Virus record (IMG/VR): IMGVR_UViG_3300021197_001133
Coordinates: 1 to 27,737 of that record
Length of the DNA stretch: 27,737 bases
Strand: one strand, 5' to 3'
DNA from: a virus
Made by a program: the position numbers and the translations under genes. Below are positions 4,032-27,737 of the stretch, piece by piece (the first letter of the stretch is position 1; every line of letters starts with the position of its first letter). The notes beneath the pieces were generated by a model. The model was not told where the DNA came from and made no database searches. It saw nothing but the letters and a program-made list of their open reading frames with translations.

Positions 4032-4487
4032 ATGAAGAAATCAGAACTCAAATCACTAATCAAAGAATGTATAAAAGAAGTTATCTTTGAGGAAGGTGTT
4101 CTAACCAATATTGTGACTGAGGTCGCAACAGGTATGAGGGTATCATCTACGGCTGGTATTGTCAATGAATCGCCAATGCCCCAAGTTACTTCACAATCAA
4201 ATGCCCAAATGAAAGAGCTAGCTAGAATAAGCAATGAAGCCTCTAAGATGCTTGACAGCAATAGGGGTGAAGTGATGAAGGCTATCGGCAGCAGTGCTTA
4301 TAATGACTTGAATGAGAAGTTTTCTGACCAAGGATTTTTCTCTGGGACAAAGCCATTGCAAGAATCACAAGGAAAAGGCGGCGCATTGTCTGGACTACCA
4401 CCAGGTGATGCCGGATTAGATATTACAAATATCCCAGGATTTCAAAACTGGGGCTCAGTTTCAAACAAAATAGAAAGCAAGAAATAA
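4032..4487 (+). CDS. Unrecognised 151-aa protein in head module
   Basis: Begins with an amphipathic Lys/Glu helix (MKKSELKSLIKECIKEVIFE), then a hydrophobic/Thr-rich stretch, a Ser/Asn-rich middle and a Gly/Pro-rich C-terminal half (GGALSGLPPGDAGLD). It has no membrane segment or recognised domain. It lies 20 nt after gp21, and its stop overlaps the start of the bS21 gene as TAATG. The amphipathic N-terminus recalls the short N-terminal helices that target T4 internal proteins into the prohead, and sequences of the type V-x-E occur in residues 25-50, but neither is a close match, so a packaged or core protein is only a suggestion. Confidence 0.8.
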   Translation: MKKSELKSLIKECIKEVIFEEGVLTNIVTEVATGMRVSSTAGIVNESPMPQVTSQSNAQMKELARISNEASKMLDSNRGEVMKAIGSSAYNDLNEKFSDQGFFSGTKPLQESQGKGGALSGLPPGDAGLDITNIPGFQNWGSVSNKIESKK

Positions 4488-4777
4488 TGAGAAAAAATAA
4501 TAAGTTCAACAAGAGAAGACAACGACCACTCGAACCCTGTGTTACAGTTCACGCAGAAGAGTGTAATGGAGATCCTGAAAAGATGGTTCGCCGATTTACT
4601 AAGAAGGTTAAGCGTGAGGGTATCATTGAAGAATGTCGTGAGAGAAGGCATTTCAAGGCACCAAGCGAAACAAACCGGGAAAGAAAAGAGGCAAAGAAAA
4701 GAATCATAACTCAGGTGAATAGAAGAAGAAATGAACTACTTACACCTAGAGACAGGTACAGAAGGAAAAAACGATAA
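4487..4777 (+). CDS. rpsU-like: Ribosomal protein bS21 homologue
   Basis: Very basic 96-aa protein. The central region carries the bS21 pattern: residues 31-58 read 'EKMVRRFTKKVKREGIIEE' followed by 'CRERRHFKAPS', matching the bacterial S21 core (A-L-R-R-F-K-R-x-x-E-x-x-G-[IV]-L-x-E-x-R-x-R-x-x-Y-x-K-P-[ST]), then an Arg/Lys-rich helix 'RERKEAKKR' (65-73). bS21 sits on the 30S platform near the anti-Shine-Dalgarno region and is needed for efficient initiation on natural mRNAs. Phage-encoded bS21 has been reported in marine phages. A 20-residue N-terminal extension and a basic C-terminal extension make it longer than the usual 65-71 aa of cellular S21. Junctions on both sides are TAATG, so translation is coupled to the genes before and after. 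Confidence 0.88.
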   Translation: MRKNNKFNKRRQRPLEPCVTVHAEECNGDPEKMVRRFTKKVKREGIIEECRERRHFKAPSETNRERKEAKKRIITQVNRRRNELLTPRDRYRRKKR

Positions 4778-7088: not shown

Positions 7089-8828
7089 ATGTCAGTATTA
7101 GAAACACTCACAGAAGGCATCAAGGCTCGTTCCTTGGCCAATGAGGGTGAAGCACTTCTCGGGAAGTGGGAAAAGACTGGTCTTCTAGAAGGTCTTAGCG
7201 ATGTTAGAAGTTCTAACATGGCTCGTCTACTAGAAAACCAAGCTGCCCAGCTTCTCAAAGAATCCAGCACAATGGCTGCTGGTGACGTCGAAGGCTTCTC
7301 CGCAGTTGCATTCCCAATCGTTCGCCGTGTATTCGGTAACCTTTTGGCACAGGATCTCGTATCCGTTCAACCAATGAGCCTACCTTCAGGTCTCATTTTC
7401 TTCCTAGATTTCACCTATGAGAAGACCCAAGCCGCTTCCGGCGCTGTCGGTGGTGTTACCCCTGAATCCGTTTACGGCGGTGGCGTTGTAGGTTCGGGAT
7501 TGACTGGTGGTGTTGATTTGGGCTCTGATGCAGCAACAGATCCAGAAAAGAGTTTTTATGCTCTTAACAATGGTTACTCTGCTGCTACAGCTTCCTCGAC
7601 GACAGCTACCATCCCTTGCGTCGCTGGCACAAACATCCCAGCCGCTAAGATTTTTGCTAATCTTACATCTGCCGAGTTGTCTCGTCTAAACAATGACCCA
7701 GACGTCCTTGCAGCTATGGCAGCAACCCCTGCTGCTGAAGTCATTGAAGTCAGAATTGCTGCTGGCGCTGCCCTTGGTCAGGTTGACTTTGAGCTTCCTA
7801 ACCTCAACCGAGACAATGTAATTGCTCTTGCTGCAACCTATACCAATGATGCTAATGCCATTCTCGTCCGCCGCTTGACTCGTTTTGAGTCTGACGGTAG
7901 TTTGTCCATGGTCTTCTTGGACGACGCCGGCGCAGTTGCCGCAGCGACAACCTTCTCCGTGGTTACATACAACCGTGCTGATAACTTCGCTGCTGCTACC
8001 GCTACTGGTGGTGTCACCGGTGCTGAACCATGGCGCTTAGAAGCTGATTCGGCTCTAAACGAAATCGACATCAAGGTTGATTCCGTAGCTGTCACAGCTA
8101 TGACCCGTAAGCTCAAGGCTAAGTGGTCCCCAGAACTAGCTCAAGATTTGAACGCTTATCATAACCTCGACGCTGAAGTTGAGTTGACAAGCATTCTTTC
8201 TGAGCAGATCGCTCTAGAAATCGATCGTGAAATCCTTAAGGATCTCGTCGAAGGCGCTACCGCTGGTACATTGTACTGGTCACGCAGCCCAGGCAAGTTC
8301 GTTCAACGTGAAACAGGTGCAATCACCACAGGCGCAGTCTACCCAGACTTCACAGGTACCGTATCCGAGTGGTACGAGACTCTACTTGAGACAGTCAACG
8401 ACGTAAGTGCTCGTATTCACCGTAAGACCCTTCGTGGCGGCGCTAACTTCCTAGTTTGCGGTCCCGAAGTAGCTTCCATTCTTGAGTTCACCAGCGGCTT
8501 CCGTGCTTCTACAGCAGTAGACAGCGACACAACCGGCTCCTGGGGTGCTCAAAATGTTGGTTCTATCAGCCGTAAGATGGACATTCATGTCGATCCTTAC
8601 TTCCCACGCAGTACCCTACTAGTAGGTCGTCGTGGTGGCAGCTTCCTAGAAAGCGGCTATGTATACGCTCCTTATGTACCACTACAGGTCACACCCACCA
8701 TCTTTGGTATCGAAGATTTCGTCCCACGTAAGGGCGTAATGACTCGCTATGCTAAGAAGATGGTTCGTCCTGATATGTACGGCTTGGTCATTTGCAAGGA
8801 TCTTGTAACTGATGTTGCTGATAAGTAG
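7089..8828 (+). CDS. 23: Major capsid protein gp23
   Basis: HK97-fold major head subunit. The N-terminus 'LLGKWEKTGLLEG' and 'ARLLENQ' parallel the T4 gp23 propeptide, and the mature domain begins near 'AFPIVRRVFGNLLAQDLVSVQPM' (read with gaps; about residues 74-96), a clear gp23 signature. 579 aa compared with 521 in T4, the excess being an Ala/Thr-rich insert of roughly 200 residues (about 115-320) in the place of the T4 insertion domain. 'KAKWSPELAQDLNAYHNLDAE' (about 340-360) is the conserved core that follows. Propeptide removal by gp21 is expected: E58 (LKE) and E68 (DVE, next residue Gly) are both candidates. The SD AAGGAGAT is strong, 8-9 nt before the ATG. Followed by an intrinsic terminator. 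Confidence 0.97.
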   Translation: MSVLETLTEGIKARSLANEGEALLGKWEKTGLLEGLSDVRSSNMARLLENQAAQLLKESSTMAAGDVEGFSAVAFPIVRRVFGNLLAQDLVSVQPMSLPSGLIFFLDFTYEKTQAASGAVGGVTPESVYGGGVVGSGLTGGVDLGSDAATDPEKSFYALNNGYSAATASSTTATIPCVAGTNIPAAKIFANLTSAELSRLNNDPDVLAAMAATPAAEVIEVRIAAGAALGQVDFELPNLNRDNVIALAATYTNDANAILVRRLTRFESDGSLSMVFLDDAGAVAAATTFSVVTYNRADNFAAATATGGVTGAEPWRLEADSALNEIDIKVDSVAVTAMTRKLKAKWSPELAQDLNAYHNLDAEVELTSILSEQIALEIDREILKDLVEGATAGTLYWSRSPGKFVQRETGAITTGAVYPDFTGTVSEWYETLLETVNDVSARIHRKTLRGGANFLVCGPEVASILEFTSGFRASTAVDSDTTGSWGAQNVGSISRKMDIHVDPYFPRSTLLVGRRGGSFLESGYVYAPYVPLQVTPTIFGIEDFVPRKGVMTRYAKKMVRPDMYGLVICKDLVTDVADK

Positions 8829-23205: not shown

Positions 23206-24723
23206 ATGGCAGATCAGTATAAACCATCTCCAAGCGAGAATCCAGAATCTTATTCATATGGGGAAAACGACCTTAGTGCGGCAGGTATACATACCGAGCG
23301 GCTTATCTATAGGAATCTTATCTTCCCGCAAGGTTTGATCACAAACTCTGTCAGCACTTGGTCTACTGAGCGATTTTATGGTATCGTAAACACAAAAGGA
23401 AATACGGTAATACCTGATCAGAAGTTTCTAAAACCACTGTACTTCACAGATAACGAAAGCCAATTTGCATTGAACTTTGTAGCTGACGCTTGGTACGACT
23501 TGTCTAAAAAACTTAGAGAGCTAGCAGACCAAAACATAATATTCAGGAACAGTCCTTGGACTGAACCAACAATTGTGAAAGCATGGAATCCTGCTACTTT
23601 AGAATATGATGAATATATGAGAGATGTAGTCTATCGATACTTCATCGAAAGCTTTCTACCTTTGGGGAACAAAGAGAGAAGAATAAAAAACATTGACAAC
23701 TTCTTATCTGTGTTCGACGAGTACATAGACTTAGCAGTTTCACTAGTGGGACCAACAACATTCAGTGGATACATAGAGGGAGTAAGTTTATCTCCTTTGA
23801 TGTCTGGGTTGATGGTCGAGATCGCTGCTGAGCAATACTCTGACGACTTCACAAAGTCTTATGAGTTCTTAGATCAGAACTTTGAACTTGTTTCTAATAT
23901 CGTAGCACAGTACGGATTCTCTATTGATAGAAATATCCCGTGGAGGCTAGTGGCAGATCTTAGGAATCCAGCTATGCAAGAATACATGTATGGCGTTCCA
24001 ATCGAGGAGTTTGAAGACCTTTATCCTGATCCTTTGCCATGCGACCCTACACTTGAAAATCAGGAGTTAGCTCCAATGGCTTTTGGTTATTCTCAAATTC
24101 CAGGGATGGAGAGTGTAAAACGCCGCATAGCTATACATTTTGATGAAAATGGAGCCCCTAAGCCAGGCTACCAGGAATATCAACCAGCCAAAGACGCCTC
24201 CTCTCAAGAGGAGGTGTTCGAGACATTATTTGAAGCCTCTTATACCGAGACCTGGAACAACGACGCTGAACTTCTAGAGAAATACATTCTTGGCTTCTAT
24301 AATACTTACATCCTTACTGCTCCGACAGTCAGTGTGAGAAAAGAGTATGTGCAAGTCGATTGTGTTCCCAAGACAGAAGTGATAGAAAGAAGCCAGATTT
24401 CTGAGGAAGAATATAAAGCTCACTTTGGAGAACGATGGAAACTAAAAACATTTTACCTCTCTAGACTAACAGAGCGTGACCCTACTCGATCATCGAGAAT
24501 AAGAAGAAGAGAGGTTCAACAGATAATGAATGTCTACAATCTCAGTTCAGAGAACCGATATATGAGGGCATTAAGATTCGCCCAAGAGGAATATATTGGA
24601 CCATACGACACTGATCCATTAACATTGAGGACAGTAGGGGATATAATTGGATCTAGCGAGGAAGAAAATGATATTCCAAACACTAGACGACAAGACCGAG
24701 TGCGTCGGAATCTATACACATAA
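23206..24723 (+). CDS. Unrecognised 505-aa virion/baseplate-region protein
   Basis: No family recognised. Soluble, rich in Tyr, Asp, Glu and Asn, with several aromatic-rich helical stretches ('FALNFVADAWYDLSKKL', 'IKNIDNFLSVFDEYIDL', 'QYSDDFTKSYEFLDQNFEL'), no membrane segment and a basic disordered end ('NTRRQDRVRRNLYT'). Its ATG immediately follows the stop of the hub-like gene with AGGTAG upstream, so it belongs to the same transcript and probably to the baseplate. The last 56 nt contain the start of the DNA polymerase gene in another frame. Confidence 0.8.
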   Translation: MADQYKPSPSENPESYSYGENDLSAAGIHTERLIYRNLIFPQGLITNSVSTWSTERFYGIVNTKGNTVIPDQKFLKPLYFTDNESQFALNFVADAWYDLSKKLRELADQNIIFRNSPWTEPTIVKAWNPATLEYDEYMRDVVYRYFIESFLPLGNKERRIKNIDNFLSVFDEYIDLAVSLVGPTTFSGYIEGVSLSPLMSGLMVEIAAEQYSDDFTKSYEFLDQNFELVSNIVAQYGFSIDRNIPWRLVADLRNPAMQEYMYGVPIEEFEDLYPDPLPCDPTLENQELAPMAFGYSQIPGMESVKRRIAIHFDENGAPKPGYQEYQPAKDASSQEEVFETLFEASYTETWNNDAELLEKYILGFYNTYILTAPTVSVRKEYVQVDCVPKTEVIERSQISEEEYKAHFGERWKLKTFYLSRLTERDPTRSSRIRRREVQQIMNVYNLSSENRYMRALRFAQEEYIGPYDTDPLTLRTVGDIIGSSEEENDIPNTRRQDRVRRNLYT

Positions 24724-25888
24724 TCAGCTAGTATTCGATCCAGGGCACTTTCCTGAGGATCTTAAAGCAACCTGGAAATATGCACCGTATTTACGTGACT
24801 TAGACGTAGATTACATATCTTTGTACCTTGAGGGTGGGAAGATCAGTGATAATATCCCTGAATACTTGCAAGACGACTGGGATGATGTATCCAAGAAAAT
24901 CCTTGCTTTCAAGAGATCACTGGCTATTTCACAGGTAGACACCTATGATAACTGTTTCTTTGACTTGGTCCCCAAGAGATTCTTGATGGATTTTTGTGAG
25001 GTAAAGAATAAAATATGTGAACACATCCTCAAGACAGTAAAGAAGCCAGAACGATATGACTTCTATAAACATATCTCTATGATGCTAGGGGACATTGCAA
25101 CAAGAAAGATTTCAATCGACACAAAAAGAGTAAAGTCTTTTGAAGCTTCGCAGAAGCTAAAGAATCAAGCAAAGATGATCCTCAAGAACAAGCCTTATGC
25201 AGACTATAACCAGTTTGGGACAAGGACTGGGAGGCTAACAACCAAAAAGGGGTCATTTCCTATCCTGACCCTTAGTAAAGAGTTTAGATCAGCGGTCCTT
25301 CCTCAAAATGATTACTTCATTGAGCTAGACTTTAATGGGGCAGAGGTCAGAACGCTGCTTGGTCTACTGGGTAAACCGCAGCCAACCGAGGATGTTCACG
25401 ATTTTCATCTAAATAACATCTTTACCGATGTTCACAATAGAAATGACGCAAAGGTAGCTTTTTTTGCTTGGCTTTATGGTTCAAAATCAGCCGTCAACCA
25501 GCGAGATATGCAGAAACTAGCCAGTTTCTACGAGAAGGGTCGCCTACTCAAAGAATATTGGGATGGTAGCACAGTTAGAACACCATTTAGGAAAGAAATG
25601 CCGGATGTAAGCGAACATCACGCCCTCAACTACTTGGTACAGTCCACCGCAGCAGAACTAACCCTAAAGCAGGCTCTAAAGATGGAGTACTTGCTTCGTA
25701 ACCGCTCCTCTGGCTCTAACATCGCTTTCTTGATCCACGATGCGGTCGTACTTGATATGAAAAAAGAGGATGAGAACCTAATTAAACCATTGCTAGCACT
25801 TATGAGTTCGACAAACTTTGGAACTTTTAGGGTAAACATTAAAAGAGGTAAAACTCTAGGTTCTATGAAGGATATACAAGTTGGATAA
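24668..25888 (+). CDS. Compact family A DNA polymerase, no exonuclease
   Basis: 406 aa from ATG 24668 (SD GAGG at 24658-24661; a TTG at 24647 is in frame but has no better site). A family A polymerase domain is visible: 'GTRTGRLTT' (184-192) with 'FPILTLSKEFRSAVLP', motif A 'FIELDFNGAEVR' (217-228, catalytic D221), O-helix motif B from R258 through K262 and F266 to YG (270-271), 'NYLVQSTAAEL' (321-331) and motif C 'FLIHDAVVLDM' (354-364, catalytic D358). The usual Glu after the motif C Asp is Ala (HDA). No 3'-5' exonuclease motifs (DxE, NxxxD) are apparent in the first 150 residues. T4 uses family B gp43 instead. It starts inside the preceding virion gene and overlaps the next by 8 nt. Confidence 0.88.
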   Translation: MIFQTLDDKTECVGIYTHNQLVFDPGHFPEDLKATWKYAPYLRDLDVDYISLYLEGGKISDNIPEYLQDDWDDVSKKILAFKRSLAISQVDTYDNCFFDLVPKRFLMDFCEVKNKICEHILKTVKKPERYDFYKHISMMLGDIATRKISIDTKRVKSFEASQKLKNQAKMILKNKPYADYNQFGTRTGRLTTKKGSFPILTLSKEFRSAVLPQNDYFIELDFNGAEVRTLLGLLGKPQPTEDVHDFHLNNIFTDVHNRNDAKVAFFAWLYGSKSAVNQRDMQKLASFYEKGRLLKEYWDGSTVRTPFRKEMPDVSEHHALNYLVQSTAAELTLKQALKMEYLLRNRSSGSNIAFLIHDAVVLDMKKEDENLIKPLLALMSSTNFGTFRVNIKRGKTLGSMKDIQVG

Positions 25889-26741
25889 AGTCATTGGACT
25901 AGGTAAACTCGGTTGCGCCATTGCAGAACACCTTACATCATACCCAGAGTATAGAGTTTACAAAATAGACTCAGAGATCAAAGAGCGTGGCAGCCTTTCT
26001 ATAGGTGAGTACTCTGGGCACGACGATTATGAGTATAATCTTGACCAAGACGAAGTCGCTGTCTATCTTCGTTCAATCAAAAAGAAAGATGATGTTCTTA
26101 TGGTTGTCGAAGGCGGCGACCCTACTTCAGGTGCGATCCTCAAGATATTAGAAACTGTAAAGGACTCAAAACTAAACGTCCTCTACATCGTCCCTGATCG
26201 GGTGATGTGTTCAGAGGTCCAGCGCCGAGACGATAAGATAGCATTTAACGTTTTGCAAGAGTATGCCCGCAGTGGTGTGTTTGAGAGCATCTTTCTAGTA
26301 CATCGCCAAGCAGTAGATAATCTAGTCGGAGACGTCTCTATACAGGAGTACGAGAATAGTGTCTCTTACTTCATATCCTATATCGTCGCTATGATAAACT
26401 TCTTCAATCATACTGACCCTATCCTTGCAAATAAGATCGAGCCACACAACATTTCAAGGATCGTCACCTTCGGAGTCTCTTCCCTAGAAGAAGACCAAAG
26501 AGATGTCAAGCTCCTGTTTCCGCTTGAATCAGCAAGAGATATACATTTTTTCTATGGCATCCCCGAGCCGGCTCTAGACGAAGACCCTTCCTTGACGAAT
26601 AAGATCAAGCAACATGTGAAAAGTTTCAAAGAAGAAGACATATCCACCAGTTTTTCGGTATACTCAACAGATTTCGAGAATCTAATGGTTCTTTGTATTG
26701 CATATTCGTCGGAGATTCAGCCAGTTTTGGATACTATTTAG
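25881..26741 (+). CDS. Divergent FtsZ/tubulin-like protein
   Basis: 286 aa, TTG start with GAAGG 8-9 nt upstream; the overlap with the polymerase end implies coupling. The layout follows the tubulin/FtsZ fold: a Gly-rich first loop 'VIGLGKLGCAIAE' (4-16), a strand then 'EGGDPTSGAILKILETVKDS' (77-96) at the place of the FtsZ signature GGGTGTG, 'VLYIVPDR' and 'RR' (115-116), 'FESIFLVHRQAVDNL' (134-148) matching the FtsZ 'VDTLIVIPNDRL' strand, a long helix, and a C-terminal domain with 'FFYGIP' and 'NLMVLCIAYSSE'. Spacing between landmarks agrees with FtsZ to within about 10 residues where I compared them. The T7-loop Asp appears replaced (N190). An NAD-binding Rossmann protein is the main alternative, but the C-terminal half argues for tubulin. 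Confidence 0.65.
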   Translation: MDKVIGLGKLGCAIAEHLTSYPEYRVYKIDSEIKERGSLSIGEYSGHDDYEYNLDQDEVAVYLRSIKKKDDVLMVVEGGDPTSGAILKILETVKDSKLNVLYIVPDRVMCSEVQRRDDKIAFNVLQEYARSGVFESIFLVHRQAVDNLVGDVSIQEYENSVSYFISYIVAMINFFNHTDPILANKIEPHNISRIVTFGVSSLEEDQRDVKLLFPLESARDIHFFYGIPEPALDEDPSLTNKIKQHVKSFKEEDISTSFSVYSTDFENLMVLCIAYSSEIQPVLDTI

Positions 26742-26803: not shown

Positions 26804-27244
26804 ATGGGACAGGAAAGAGGCGTATTATTAGCATCCTTCATAAAGACAGAGGATGAAGAGGCAGTTCTTGCTGAAGTGGAGTTCATAGCTTCAGACATTA
26901 ATCTAACAAATAAGTTCATATTCTTATTAGAAGATAACGAAGACCCAACAAACAAGATCTTGTCATATAACGCAATCGTCTCCAAGAACAGAGTCTATAA
27001 TCCACGCCTATACACTATCCGTGTTCACCGCAAGAAACAAACAAACACTCTCTATACCATCAACGCTCTCAATAAAGCAGTTGCTTTGGAACATGACGGT
27101 CAGACAGGAAAGCACTTAAAACTAGACTGGGAAAAATACACAGACAGTATTCTTTTGACTTCTGGTAGCGATTTAAGAGTCCATAATGTGACTGTAGCAA
27201 AAATCTTCCAGGTAGAAGATGAAGAGCCTGAGTCCGCCGAGTAA
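26804..27244 (+). CDS. Unrecognised 146-aa protein upstream of gp32
   Basis: A soluble alpha/beta protein with an N-terminal 'GVLLASFIKTEDEEAVLAEV', a central 'KFIFLLEDNEDPTNKILSYN' (about 45-64), and a conserved-looking core 'TIRVHRKKQTNTLYTINALN' (78-97) followed by 'LKLDWEKYTDSILLT' and an acidic tail (EDEEPESAE). I think related proteins occur in other marine T4-like phages without assigned function. It has its own promoter candidate and SD (AAAGGA), and is followed by a strong terminator, so it forms a one-gene unit beside gp32, whose neighbours in T4 are replication and late-transcription factors. Confidence 0.82.
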   Translation: MGQERGVLLASFIKTEDEEAVLAEVEFIASDINLTNKFIFLLEDNEDPTNKILSYNAIVSKNRVYNPRLYTIRVHRKKQTNTLYTINALNKAVALEHDGQTGKHLKLDWEKYTDSILLTSGSDLRVHNVTVAKIFQVEDEEPESAE

Positions 27245-27391: not shown

Positions 27392-27737
27392 ATGGGTATT
27401 GACTTGAATAAGATGCGGCAGAAGCACGCTGCCTTAACCAATAAAAGAGGTGGAGACACCAATGACTACTTCTGGAAGCCAGAAGAAGGAACACATCAGC
27501 TTCGACTCGTTTGTCCAAGCACCGGCGATCCGTTCTTTGAGGCATACTACCACTATTCGATGGGTTCTGAAGGTCGCACGACCGTTCTAAGCCCACGGAC
27601 TTTTGGTGATGATGATCCAATTGCCGAGTACGGCACTTCGCTTTGGAACGAAGGCACTGACGCTTCCAAGGAGGCTGCCAAGCGTTTCTGGCCTAAGATG
27701 CGAGTATTTGCTCCCGTCCTCGTCCGTGGCGAAGAGG
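27392..27737 (+). CDS. 32: ssDNA-binding protein gp32 (3' end outside window)
   Basis: First 115 residues of a gp32-type single-stranded DNA binding protein, which coats DNA during replication and recombination and organises the replisome. It starts with a basic N-terminal helix (MGIDLNKMRQKHAALTNKR) like the cooperativity domain, then an OB-fold start 'DYFWKPEEGTHQLRLVCPS' (25-43). The zinc-loop region reads 'SPRTFGDDDPIAEY' (67-80), which lines up with the C-P-x-x-F-G-x-x-C-P-[IV]-C-E pattern of gp32 but has Ser, Asp and Ala where the three cysteines belong; H54 may match the histidine ligand. ATG with AAAGGAGA upstream. The gene continues beyond the right edge. Confidence 0.85.
   Translation, partial: MGIDLNKMRQKHAALTNKRGGDTNDYFWKPEEGTHQLRLVCPSTGDPFFEAYYHYSMGSEGRTTVLSPRTFGDDDPIAEYGTSLWNEGTDASKEAAKRFWPKMRVFAPVLVRGEE

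Follow-up and report, generated by a model that had tools for sequence, protein, structure and literature searches.

A divergent tubulin/FtsZ-superfamily protein encoded directly after a DNA polymerase gene in a T4-like phage lineage

The DNA analysed here, referred to as the window, is the whole stretch of an uncultivated virus record and is 27,737 bases long. Portal gp20, protease gp21 and capsid gp23 were recognised in it by Pfam, and the earlier description of the stretch as a T4-like morphogenesis region holds. The features of the locus under study are listed in Table 1. At its centre lies an open reading frame whose product is named TubS here. The start of TubS overlaps the end of the polymerase frame by 8 bases (the polymerase stop ends at 25888), and the likely start of the polymerase is the ATG at 24668, as M8 is nearly invariant. 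TubS is followed by a conserved small protein and by a frame which we take to be the start of a gp32-like gene, a likeness judged by eye on the sequence alone.

Table 1. Coordinates of the features at the TubS locus of the window.
Feature	Position	Strand	Basis
Small family-A DNA polymerase, 5′ of TubS	24647..25888	+	Pfam DNA_pol_A, 53.4 bits (cut-off 34.3)
AAGGA within the polymerase gene, 8 bases 5′ of the TTG; likely ribosome-binding site for TubS	25868..25872	+	Reading of the sequence
TubS, divergent tubulin/FtsZ-superfamily protein, 286 aa, TTG start	25881..26741	+	AlphaFold2 model, Foldseek, VIA
T1 glycine loop of TubS, residues 6–12 (GLGKLGC)	25896..25916	+	Family counts; profile alignment to FtsZ/TubL T1
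Degenerate T4 loop of TubS, residues 77–84 (EGGDPTSG)	26109..26132	+	Family counts; alignment to TubL/FtsZ
Core helix H7 of TubS, residues 154–176	26340..26408	+	DSSP on the model
Place of T7/H8 in TubS, residues 177–193; acid pair lost, H8 absent from the model	26409..26459	+	Model, alignment, family counts
C-terminal domain of TubS, residues 194–276 (strands, H10, strands)	26460..26708	+	DSSP on the model; covered by tubulin matches
Conserved 146-aa protein	26804..27244	+	Counterparts directly 3′ of the polymerase in two cultured phages without TubS
5′ part of a gene resembling that of a T4-type gp32 (ssDNA-binding protein), truncated at the end of the window	27393..27737	+	By eye, on the sequence

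Comparison of the TubS gene with those of four relatives gave 14/9/112, 27/10/152, 34/14/153 and 60/31/173 differences at codon positions 1/2/3. On the basis of these differences, the frame is a real protein-coding gene under purifying selection. A start codon is present at or near the same residue in the loci of the relatives (ATG 91, TTG 32, GTG 15; n = 138, the nearest start within 12 codons being taken). The T4 late promoter TATAAATA occurs twice in the window, 1.14 occurrences being expected by chance, and none is near TubS. The sequence motifs pointed out in the initial annotation were found at the residues given there, i.e. GGDPTSG at 78–84, RR at 115–116, FESIFLVHRQ at 134–143, FFYGIP at 223–228 and LCIAYSS at 271–277.

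TubS is one member of a large protein family of uncultivated phages. A scan with the single sequence yielded 16 relatives, and a search with a 15-row alignment detected relatives in at least 590 IMG/VR stretches, 80 of which were kept; use of a distant member as query added 52 loci. The first TubS profile matched 148 open reading frames. Ten with a missing start or stop were dropped, leaving 138 full-length loci, which include a few contigs fetched twice and the window itself, and 99 members remained after removal of near-copies. No relative was detected by tblastn with two members against the 50,697 phage records of INPHARED. Two Wolbachia-phage matches in the tblastn search, at E 0.7, were taken as chance. 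The TubS profile gave no match in the phages RM378, immuto and Mel-JY01, and no match at E ≤ 1e-4 in LR756508, LR756511 and phage G. A single peptide pattern, a weak test, retrieved eight stretches from bacterial and archaeal genomes, with no relative among them. The window protein alone matched no PHROG family at E ≤ 1 and no Pfam family above cut-off (DUF1491, E 0.13). PHROG matches of its relatives were scattered and weak, mostly to families of unknown function, the best being 1.5e-5 in one member.

An open reading frame related to the window polymerase lies upstream of TubS in 131 of the 138 loci; the frame overlaps TubS in 73 of these and ends no more than 700 bases from it in 127. Among the seven loci that carry no upstream polymerase, TubS lies within 610 bases of the locus end in six, and the remaining one (L139) is a real exception. 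A frame related to the gp32-like one of the window is found downstream of TubS in 30 cases, and in the loci nearest to the window the order is baseplate genes, polymerase, TubS, 146-aa protein and gp32-like relative. Given its place directly after the polymerase, TubS is probably produced along with the replication machinery. Two phages among the nearest named relatives by capsid, Flavobacterium phage immuto and Microcystis phage Mel-JY01, encode a small polymerase that is distantly related (E 1.6e-19 and 4.5e-11, respectively). The counterpart of the 146-aa protein follows directly 3′ of it (E 3e-17 and 6e-19), with no TubS in between, indicating that TubS was gained or lost within a conserved module.

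The position of the gene directly 3′ of the polymerase, and its frequent overlap with it, could also be explained if TubS were a polymerase accessory factor, which binds the small polymerase or its ssDNA-binding neighbour and makes no contact with filaments. The gene order in the two cultured phages argues against this explanation, since a polymerase of the same type evidently does not need TubS there. Further evidence bearing on it is given below with the loop conservation and the distribution of the gene.

The initial annotation had described the product as a divergent FtsZ/tubulin-like protein. It asked for a top structure hit to FtsZ, TubZ or PhuZ across both domains as support, and the call was to be discarded if the predicted fold was a plain Rossmann one or lacked the tubulin C-terminal domain. 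An AlphaFold2 model built on 99 relatives reached pLDDT 96.0 and pTM 0.93; an earlier model built on 15 sequences, with pLDDT 79.9, gave the same kind of matches. With both models, all 50 matches listed by Foldseek are FtsZ or TubZ, the top match included (best E 1.9e-12 with the 15-sequence model and 3.5e-13 with the 99-sequence model). VIA comparison of the model gave CetZ 3zid (Z 24.9, rmsd 3.2, 264 residues aligned), CetZ2 4b45 (Z 24.3), TubZ 4ei7 (Z 23.7, 282 aligned), FtsZ 2r6r (Z 23.4, 276 aligned) and beta-tubulin (Z about 22, about 270 aligned); these matches span residues 1–286, with Z between 21.8 and 24.9 among the 50 matches listed. In a viral structure library, the five best matches of TubS, three of which carry the names FtsZ, cell division protein or tubulin, have 10–12% identity. 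The predicted fold is that of a two-domain tubulin, comprising a nucleotide domain, core helix H7 and a C-terminal domain. As the tubulin C-terminal domain is present in the model, neither of the discarding outcomes occurred and the FtsZ/tubulin-like assignment is upheld.

Profiles of TubS in two versions found no tubulin among solved structures. PF00091 was then run over eight long TubS-bearing contigs, three of which encode a further, larger FtsZ-like protein, named TubL here. The T4 and T7 motifs of TubL are intact. One member matches Pfam Tubulin and TubZ-like_C above cut-off, and two others match Tubulin below it. Among solved structures the best match of the TubL profile (46 rows) is CetZ at 1.7e-20, with weaker ones to TubZ and FtsZ. 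No neighbour gene of TubL has a Pfam match above cut-off. Judged from its motifs, TubL probably forms GTP-driven filaments.

The two proteins are linked by profile searches in both directions. The TubS profile detects TubL with E 8.0e-7 to 1.5e-6 in all three clade-1 contigs of at least 100 kb, and at E ≤ 1e-4 in 19 of the 21 TubL-bearing contigs of the capsid-chosen set described below, the other two having only a cut TubL. The matches cover residues around 125–186. In the reverse direction, the TubL profile finds TubS of contig G002 at E 1.9e-6. Alignment of the two profiles by hhalign gave E 9.1e-5 and a probability of 59% (1.1e-5 and 61% when a whole-length alignment was forced), values that are modest alone. 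The sequence homology that these profiles indicate between TubS and accepted tubulins is reached only via TubL.

These links bear on the possibility that TubS is an NAD(P)-binding Rossmann enzyme mistaken for an FtsZ relative. TrkA_N is the commonest weak Pfam match in the family (31 of 99 members, best 8.8e-6), as against Tubulin in 5 of 99 (best 0.049), which would be in line with such an enzyme. The structure matches are nevertheless to tubulins over the whole length, including the C-terminal domain, and the profiles lead to TubL, itself a match of CetZ, TubZ and FtsZ. A Rossmann dehydrogenase is very improbable on this evidence and was rejected.

The nucleotide pocket of TubS is partly retained. 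The T1 glycines are kept almost throughout the family (G6 in 98, G8 in 99 and G11 in 99 of 99 members). The T4 signature of FtsZ and tubulin is GGGTGT/SG, and it is present in E. coli FtsZ in the alignment with TubS and TubL. The loop GGDPTSG, read originally as following FtsZ, is correctly placed but does not have this signature; it is a degenerate form, the family having mostly G-x-G-x-I-S-G. Asparagine occupies the two putative guanine-binding columns, in T6 and in H7, in most members (N142 in 71 and N162 in 73 of 99), and the window protein has R142 and S162. In the aligned T7 region E. coli FtsZ has NVDFAD, and TubL has F-D-x-x-D with D248 and D251 in 46 of 46 members. By contrast, as far as a weak profile alignment allows residues to be mapped, the corresponding columns of TubS have D at 186 in 4 of 99 and D at 189 in 1 of 99 members. 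Anywhere in residues 178–193, D-x-x-D occurs in 3 of 99 and acid-x-x-acid in 18 of 99, and the window protein has neither of the conserved acids. With the loss of the T7 acid pair (D-x-x-D in FtsZ), which would complete GTP hydrolysis on an adjacent subunit, TubS alone would not be expected to hydrolyse GTP in the ordinary tubulin manner. Taken together, the model, profiles and alignment show TubS to be a genuine, though divergent, tubulin/FtsZ-superfamily protein with a minimal two-domain body in which T1 is kept and the T7 pair is lost. TubS may still bind nucleotide.

Mean column conservation in TubS is 0.54. T1 is highest at 0.86, T4 (0.59) and T5 (0.54) are near the mean, and T2 (0.37), T3 (0.34) and T6 (0.40) are below it. 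Apart from T1, therefore, the loops on the nucleotide side are not conserved above average, an argument against a conserved docking face on that side. Loops H1-S2 (0.79) and H5-S6 (0.73), which lie away from the nucleotide, are well conserved and may point to another partner of TubS; such loops would suit a polymerase accessory factor.

Could TubS polymerise by itself, hydrolysing in an unusual manner or very slowly, and position phage DNA or capsids in the way of PhuZ? The full two-domain fold would permit it, as would the occurrence of contigs that carry TubS and no detectable TubL, and 57 of 99 relatives have an acid at position 190 (E in 44, D in 13), which might replace the lost pair in some of them. 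Against this, the T7 pair is lost and T4 degenerate, the window protein has N190 and R142, and H8 is absent from the model. We regard self-assembly of TubS as improbable.

Prevalence of the two genes was studied in contigs chosen by capsid, so that tubulin did not decide the choice. The best 80 of 456 loci similar to the window capsid were taken, and the 41 contigs of at least 20 kb were searched. TubS was found in 21 of the 41, TubL in 21 (three cut by contig ends) and both in 10; some of the contigs may represent the same phage from different samples. Relative to the capsid start, TubS begins 18.2–21.9 kb downstream and TubL lies 10.2–12.8 kb upstream. With reach limits set after these distances were seen, TubS is present in 14 of 14 contigs that extend 22 kb downstream (7 of 7 with a limit of 25.5 kb), and TubL in 17 of 18 that extend 13 kb upstream, the exception being G061, whose capsid is 57% identical. 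No TubL lies in the window itself. Its capsid gene starts at 7089, so TubL is expected about 3–6 kb before the first base. As observed in close relatives, the lineage of the window carries two tubulins. Median identity over 36 pairs from 9 contigs is 93% for TubL, 69% for capsid and 55% for TubS; in close relatives TubL is better conserved than capsid, and TubS evolves much faster than TubL.

Outside the clade of the window the two genes are often apart. Among 24 contigs of at least 100 kb picked for either gene, some of which may be incomplete, 9 have both, 5 TubS only and 10 TubL only, and no TubL is detectable in 5 of the 8 picked for TubS. The split indicates that pairing is not obligatory outside this clade. 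Searches of the TubS-only contigs with PF00091 and the TubL profile gave no TubL. None was found either in contigs G002 and G004, in which all frames of at least 120 aa were searched by hmmsearch --max and a motif scan; the best TubL-profile match besides TubS was one frame (L440) at E 0.045. By eye, L440 resembles a UDP-GlcNAc epimerase. A distant polymerase is present in 6 of the 10 TubL-only contigs, two of the six being nearly the same phage, and the next gene encodes a protein of 172–195 aa, not TubS. Any partnership of TubS and TubL, if real, holds for the clade of the window and some others, not for all. The 5 of 8 contigs with TubS and no detectable TubL are as a polymerase accessory factor would predict; that almost every capsid-chosen contig of sufficient reach carries both tubulins is not. 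We consider the accessory role unlikely, though a serious alternative.

TubS-only contigs would also be accounted for if TubS acted on the host. Phage proteins that block FtsZ are known. With a tubulin fold and no T7 acids, TubS could enter or cap host FtsZ filaments through its nucleotide face and stop their growth, halting division of the infected cell. The fixed place of the gene beside the polymerase speaks against such interference, as does the lack of sequence closeness (TubS profile against the single sequence of E. coli FtsZ, E 0.15). We rate it as quite improbable, marginally more so than filaments made of TubS itself.

The reading that we put forward, tentatively and at somewhat less than an even chance, is that TubS, a tubulin without catalysis, sits on TubL filaments as a non-hydrolysing end subunit and couples them to replication. 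Within a tubulin filament, each T7 loop completes the nucleotide site of the adjoining subunit. A protein that has the nucleotide face but no T7 acids could occupy a filament end, its nucleotide face against the T7 face of the terminal subunit, and gamma-tubulin has this kind of role at microtubule minus ends. TubL would polymerise into GTP-driven filaments, and the nucleotide face of TubS would dock on the T7 end of such a filament. End-bound TubS would then cap or seed the filaments and tie them to replicating DNA, and the filaments would position or organise the replication site. The initial annotation had suggested that the protein may organise replication or packaging. In PhuZ the catalytic aspartate sits in T7 (PMC3678025), and the inactive mutant D190A is reported to have an about tenfold lower critical concentration, with filament dynamics absent (PMC4244570).

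Counted in favour of the end-subunit role are the predicted fold, the profile links between TubS and TubL, the loss of the T7 acids as against their retention in every TubL member, the polymerase context, the co-prevalence and the conservation of TubL. Counted against it are the faster evolution of TubS, which is unlike what is expected of an obligate subunit pair, the separation of the genes in many of the 24 long contigs, the poorly kept nucleotide-side loops, the R142 and S162 of the window protein, and the mapping of T7 on a weak alignment. A fuller version, built by analogy, is a two-tubulin cytoskeleton in which an almost invariant, complete TubL would be nucleated by a catalytically dead, polymerase-tied TubS, acting like gamma-tubulin at filament ends and anchoring them to the replication machinery. 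This version is doubtful, less probable still than the accessory factor.

A literature search found no published report on tubulins in T4-like phages, and the words tubulin and FtsZ are missing from the main text of the far-T4 papers PMC4360716 and PMC13037479 (2026). Phage tubulins found described comprise PhuZ of jumbo phages, TubZ elements and, by annotation, one of phage G; an overview of jumbo phages mentions two distinct FtsZ/tubulin representatives among them (PMC7824862). With TubS, a T4-like lineage regularly carries a gene for a tubulin-fold protein, located beside that of the DNA polymerase. If the proposed role is borne out, tubulin-organised infection is not peculiar to giant phages, and a small natural pair of a catalytic and a non-catalytic tubulin would allow direct tests of nucleation, capping and cargo coupling.

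Among known systems, gp138 of Bacillus phage G ('putative FtsZ-like cell division protein') is like TubL, phage G being the only INPHARED phage matched by the TubL of L155 (E 3e-7, 22% identity); the TubL profile matches gp138 at E 5.7e-25. Phage G differs in being a 497-kb phage and in having no TubS match at the threshold given above. PhuZ, like TubS, is a phage-encoded protein of the tubulin superfamily and has been reported to place phage DNA close to mid-cell (PMC4244570). It is, however, a jumbo-phage tubulin, and the phage of TubS is T4-like. The sequence signal is slight: as a single protein, PhuZ of phiKZ gave E 0.0063 and 2.0 bits with the TubS profile and E 0.011 and 2 bits or less with the TubL profile; PhuZ chains are not among the 50 VIA matches listed for TubS, which excludes nothing. 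TubZ is the partition tubulin of plasmids and phages, in a type III system with DNA-binding TubR and the centromere tubC. It resembles TubS in structure, and one TubL member matches its C-terminal Pfam family, whereas TubS itself has no Pfam match above cut-off. FtsZ shares with TubS the two-domain fold over the whole length and the T1 loop; TubS departs from it in lacking the T7 D-x-x-D and GGGTGTG, in its identity of 11–16% and in the coupling of its gene to a phage polymerase gene. CetZ, an archaeal tubulin/FtsZ family, provides the best structural matches of TubS and the best solved-structure match of TubL, but TubS, 286 aa long, has a degenerate T4, lacks the T7 acid pair, shows no H8 in its model and is 12–16% identical to it in VIA. 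TubS is accordingly placed within the tubulin/FtsZ superfamily, apart from FtsZ, TubZ and PhuZ proper.

Across nine contigs, TubL, the second, larger tubulin of close relatives of the window phage, shared 91-100% identity, whereas capsid identity was 62-84%. For a phage protein, TubL thus evolves unusually slowly. By eye, the two small proteins on either side of TubL in L155, a related phage locus, resemble lysis genes; a Pfam search with them gave nothing above cut-off.

The family-A DNA polymerase gene of the window lies where the baseplate genes end, and no exonuclease domain was reported in its product by Pfam. Two cultured phages, Flavobacterium phage immuto and Microcystis phage Mel-JY01, share with the window a conserved protein encoded beside the polymerase module; a Pfam search with this protein likewise gave nothing above cut-off. 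The window also encodes a ribosomal protein S21, and in Mel-JY01 an annotated S21 is close to the capsid gene.

Features of the window and of related phage loci (L155 and L160, carrying TubL; L460 and L461, from the two cultured phages)
Feature	Position	Strand	Evidence
Small protein, apparent membrane segments, one side of TubL	L155:426-839	-	
TubL, FtsZ/TubZ-like, 378 aa	L155:808-1944	-	
Small protein, apparent membrane segments, other side of TubL	L155:1956-2452	-	
TubL, FtsZ/TubZ-like, 378 aa	L160:5001-6137	+	
Phage-encoded ribosomal protein S21, among head genes	window 4487-4777	+	Pfam 35.6 bits (cut-off 27); PHROG S21
Small family-A DNA polymerase, ~400 aa	window 24647-25888	+	Pfam
Conserved 146-151-aa protein, HRKK..NT.YTIN	window 26804-27244; L460:1346-1801; L461:2076-2519
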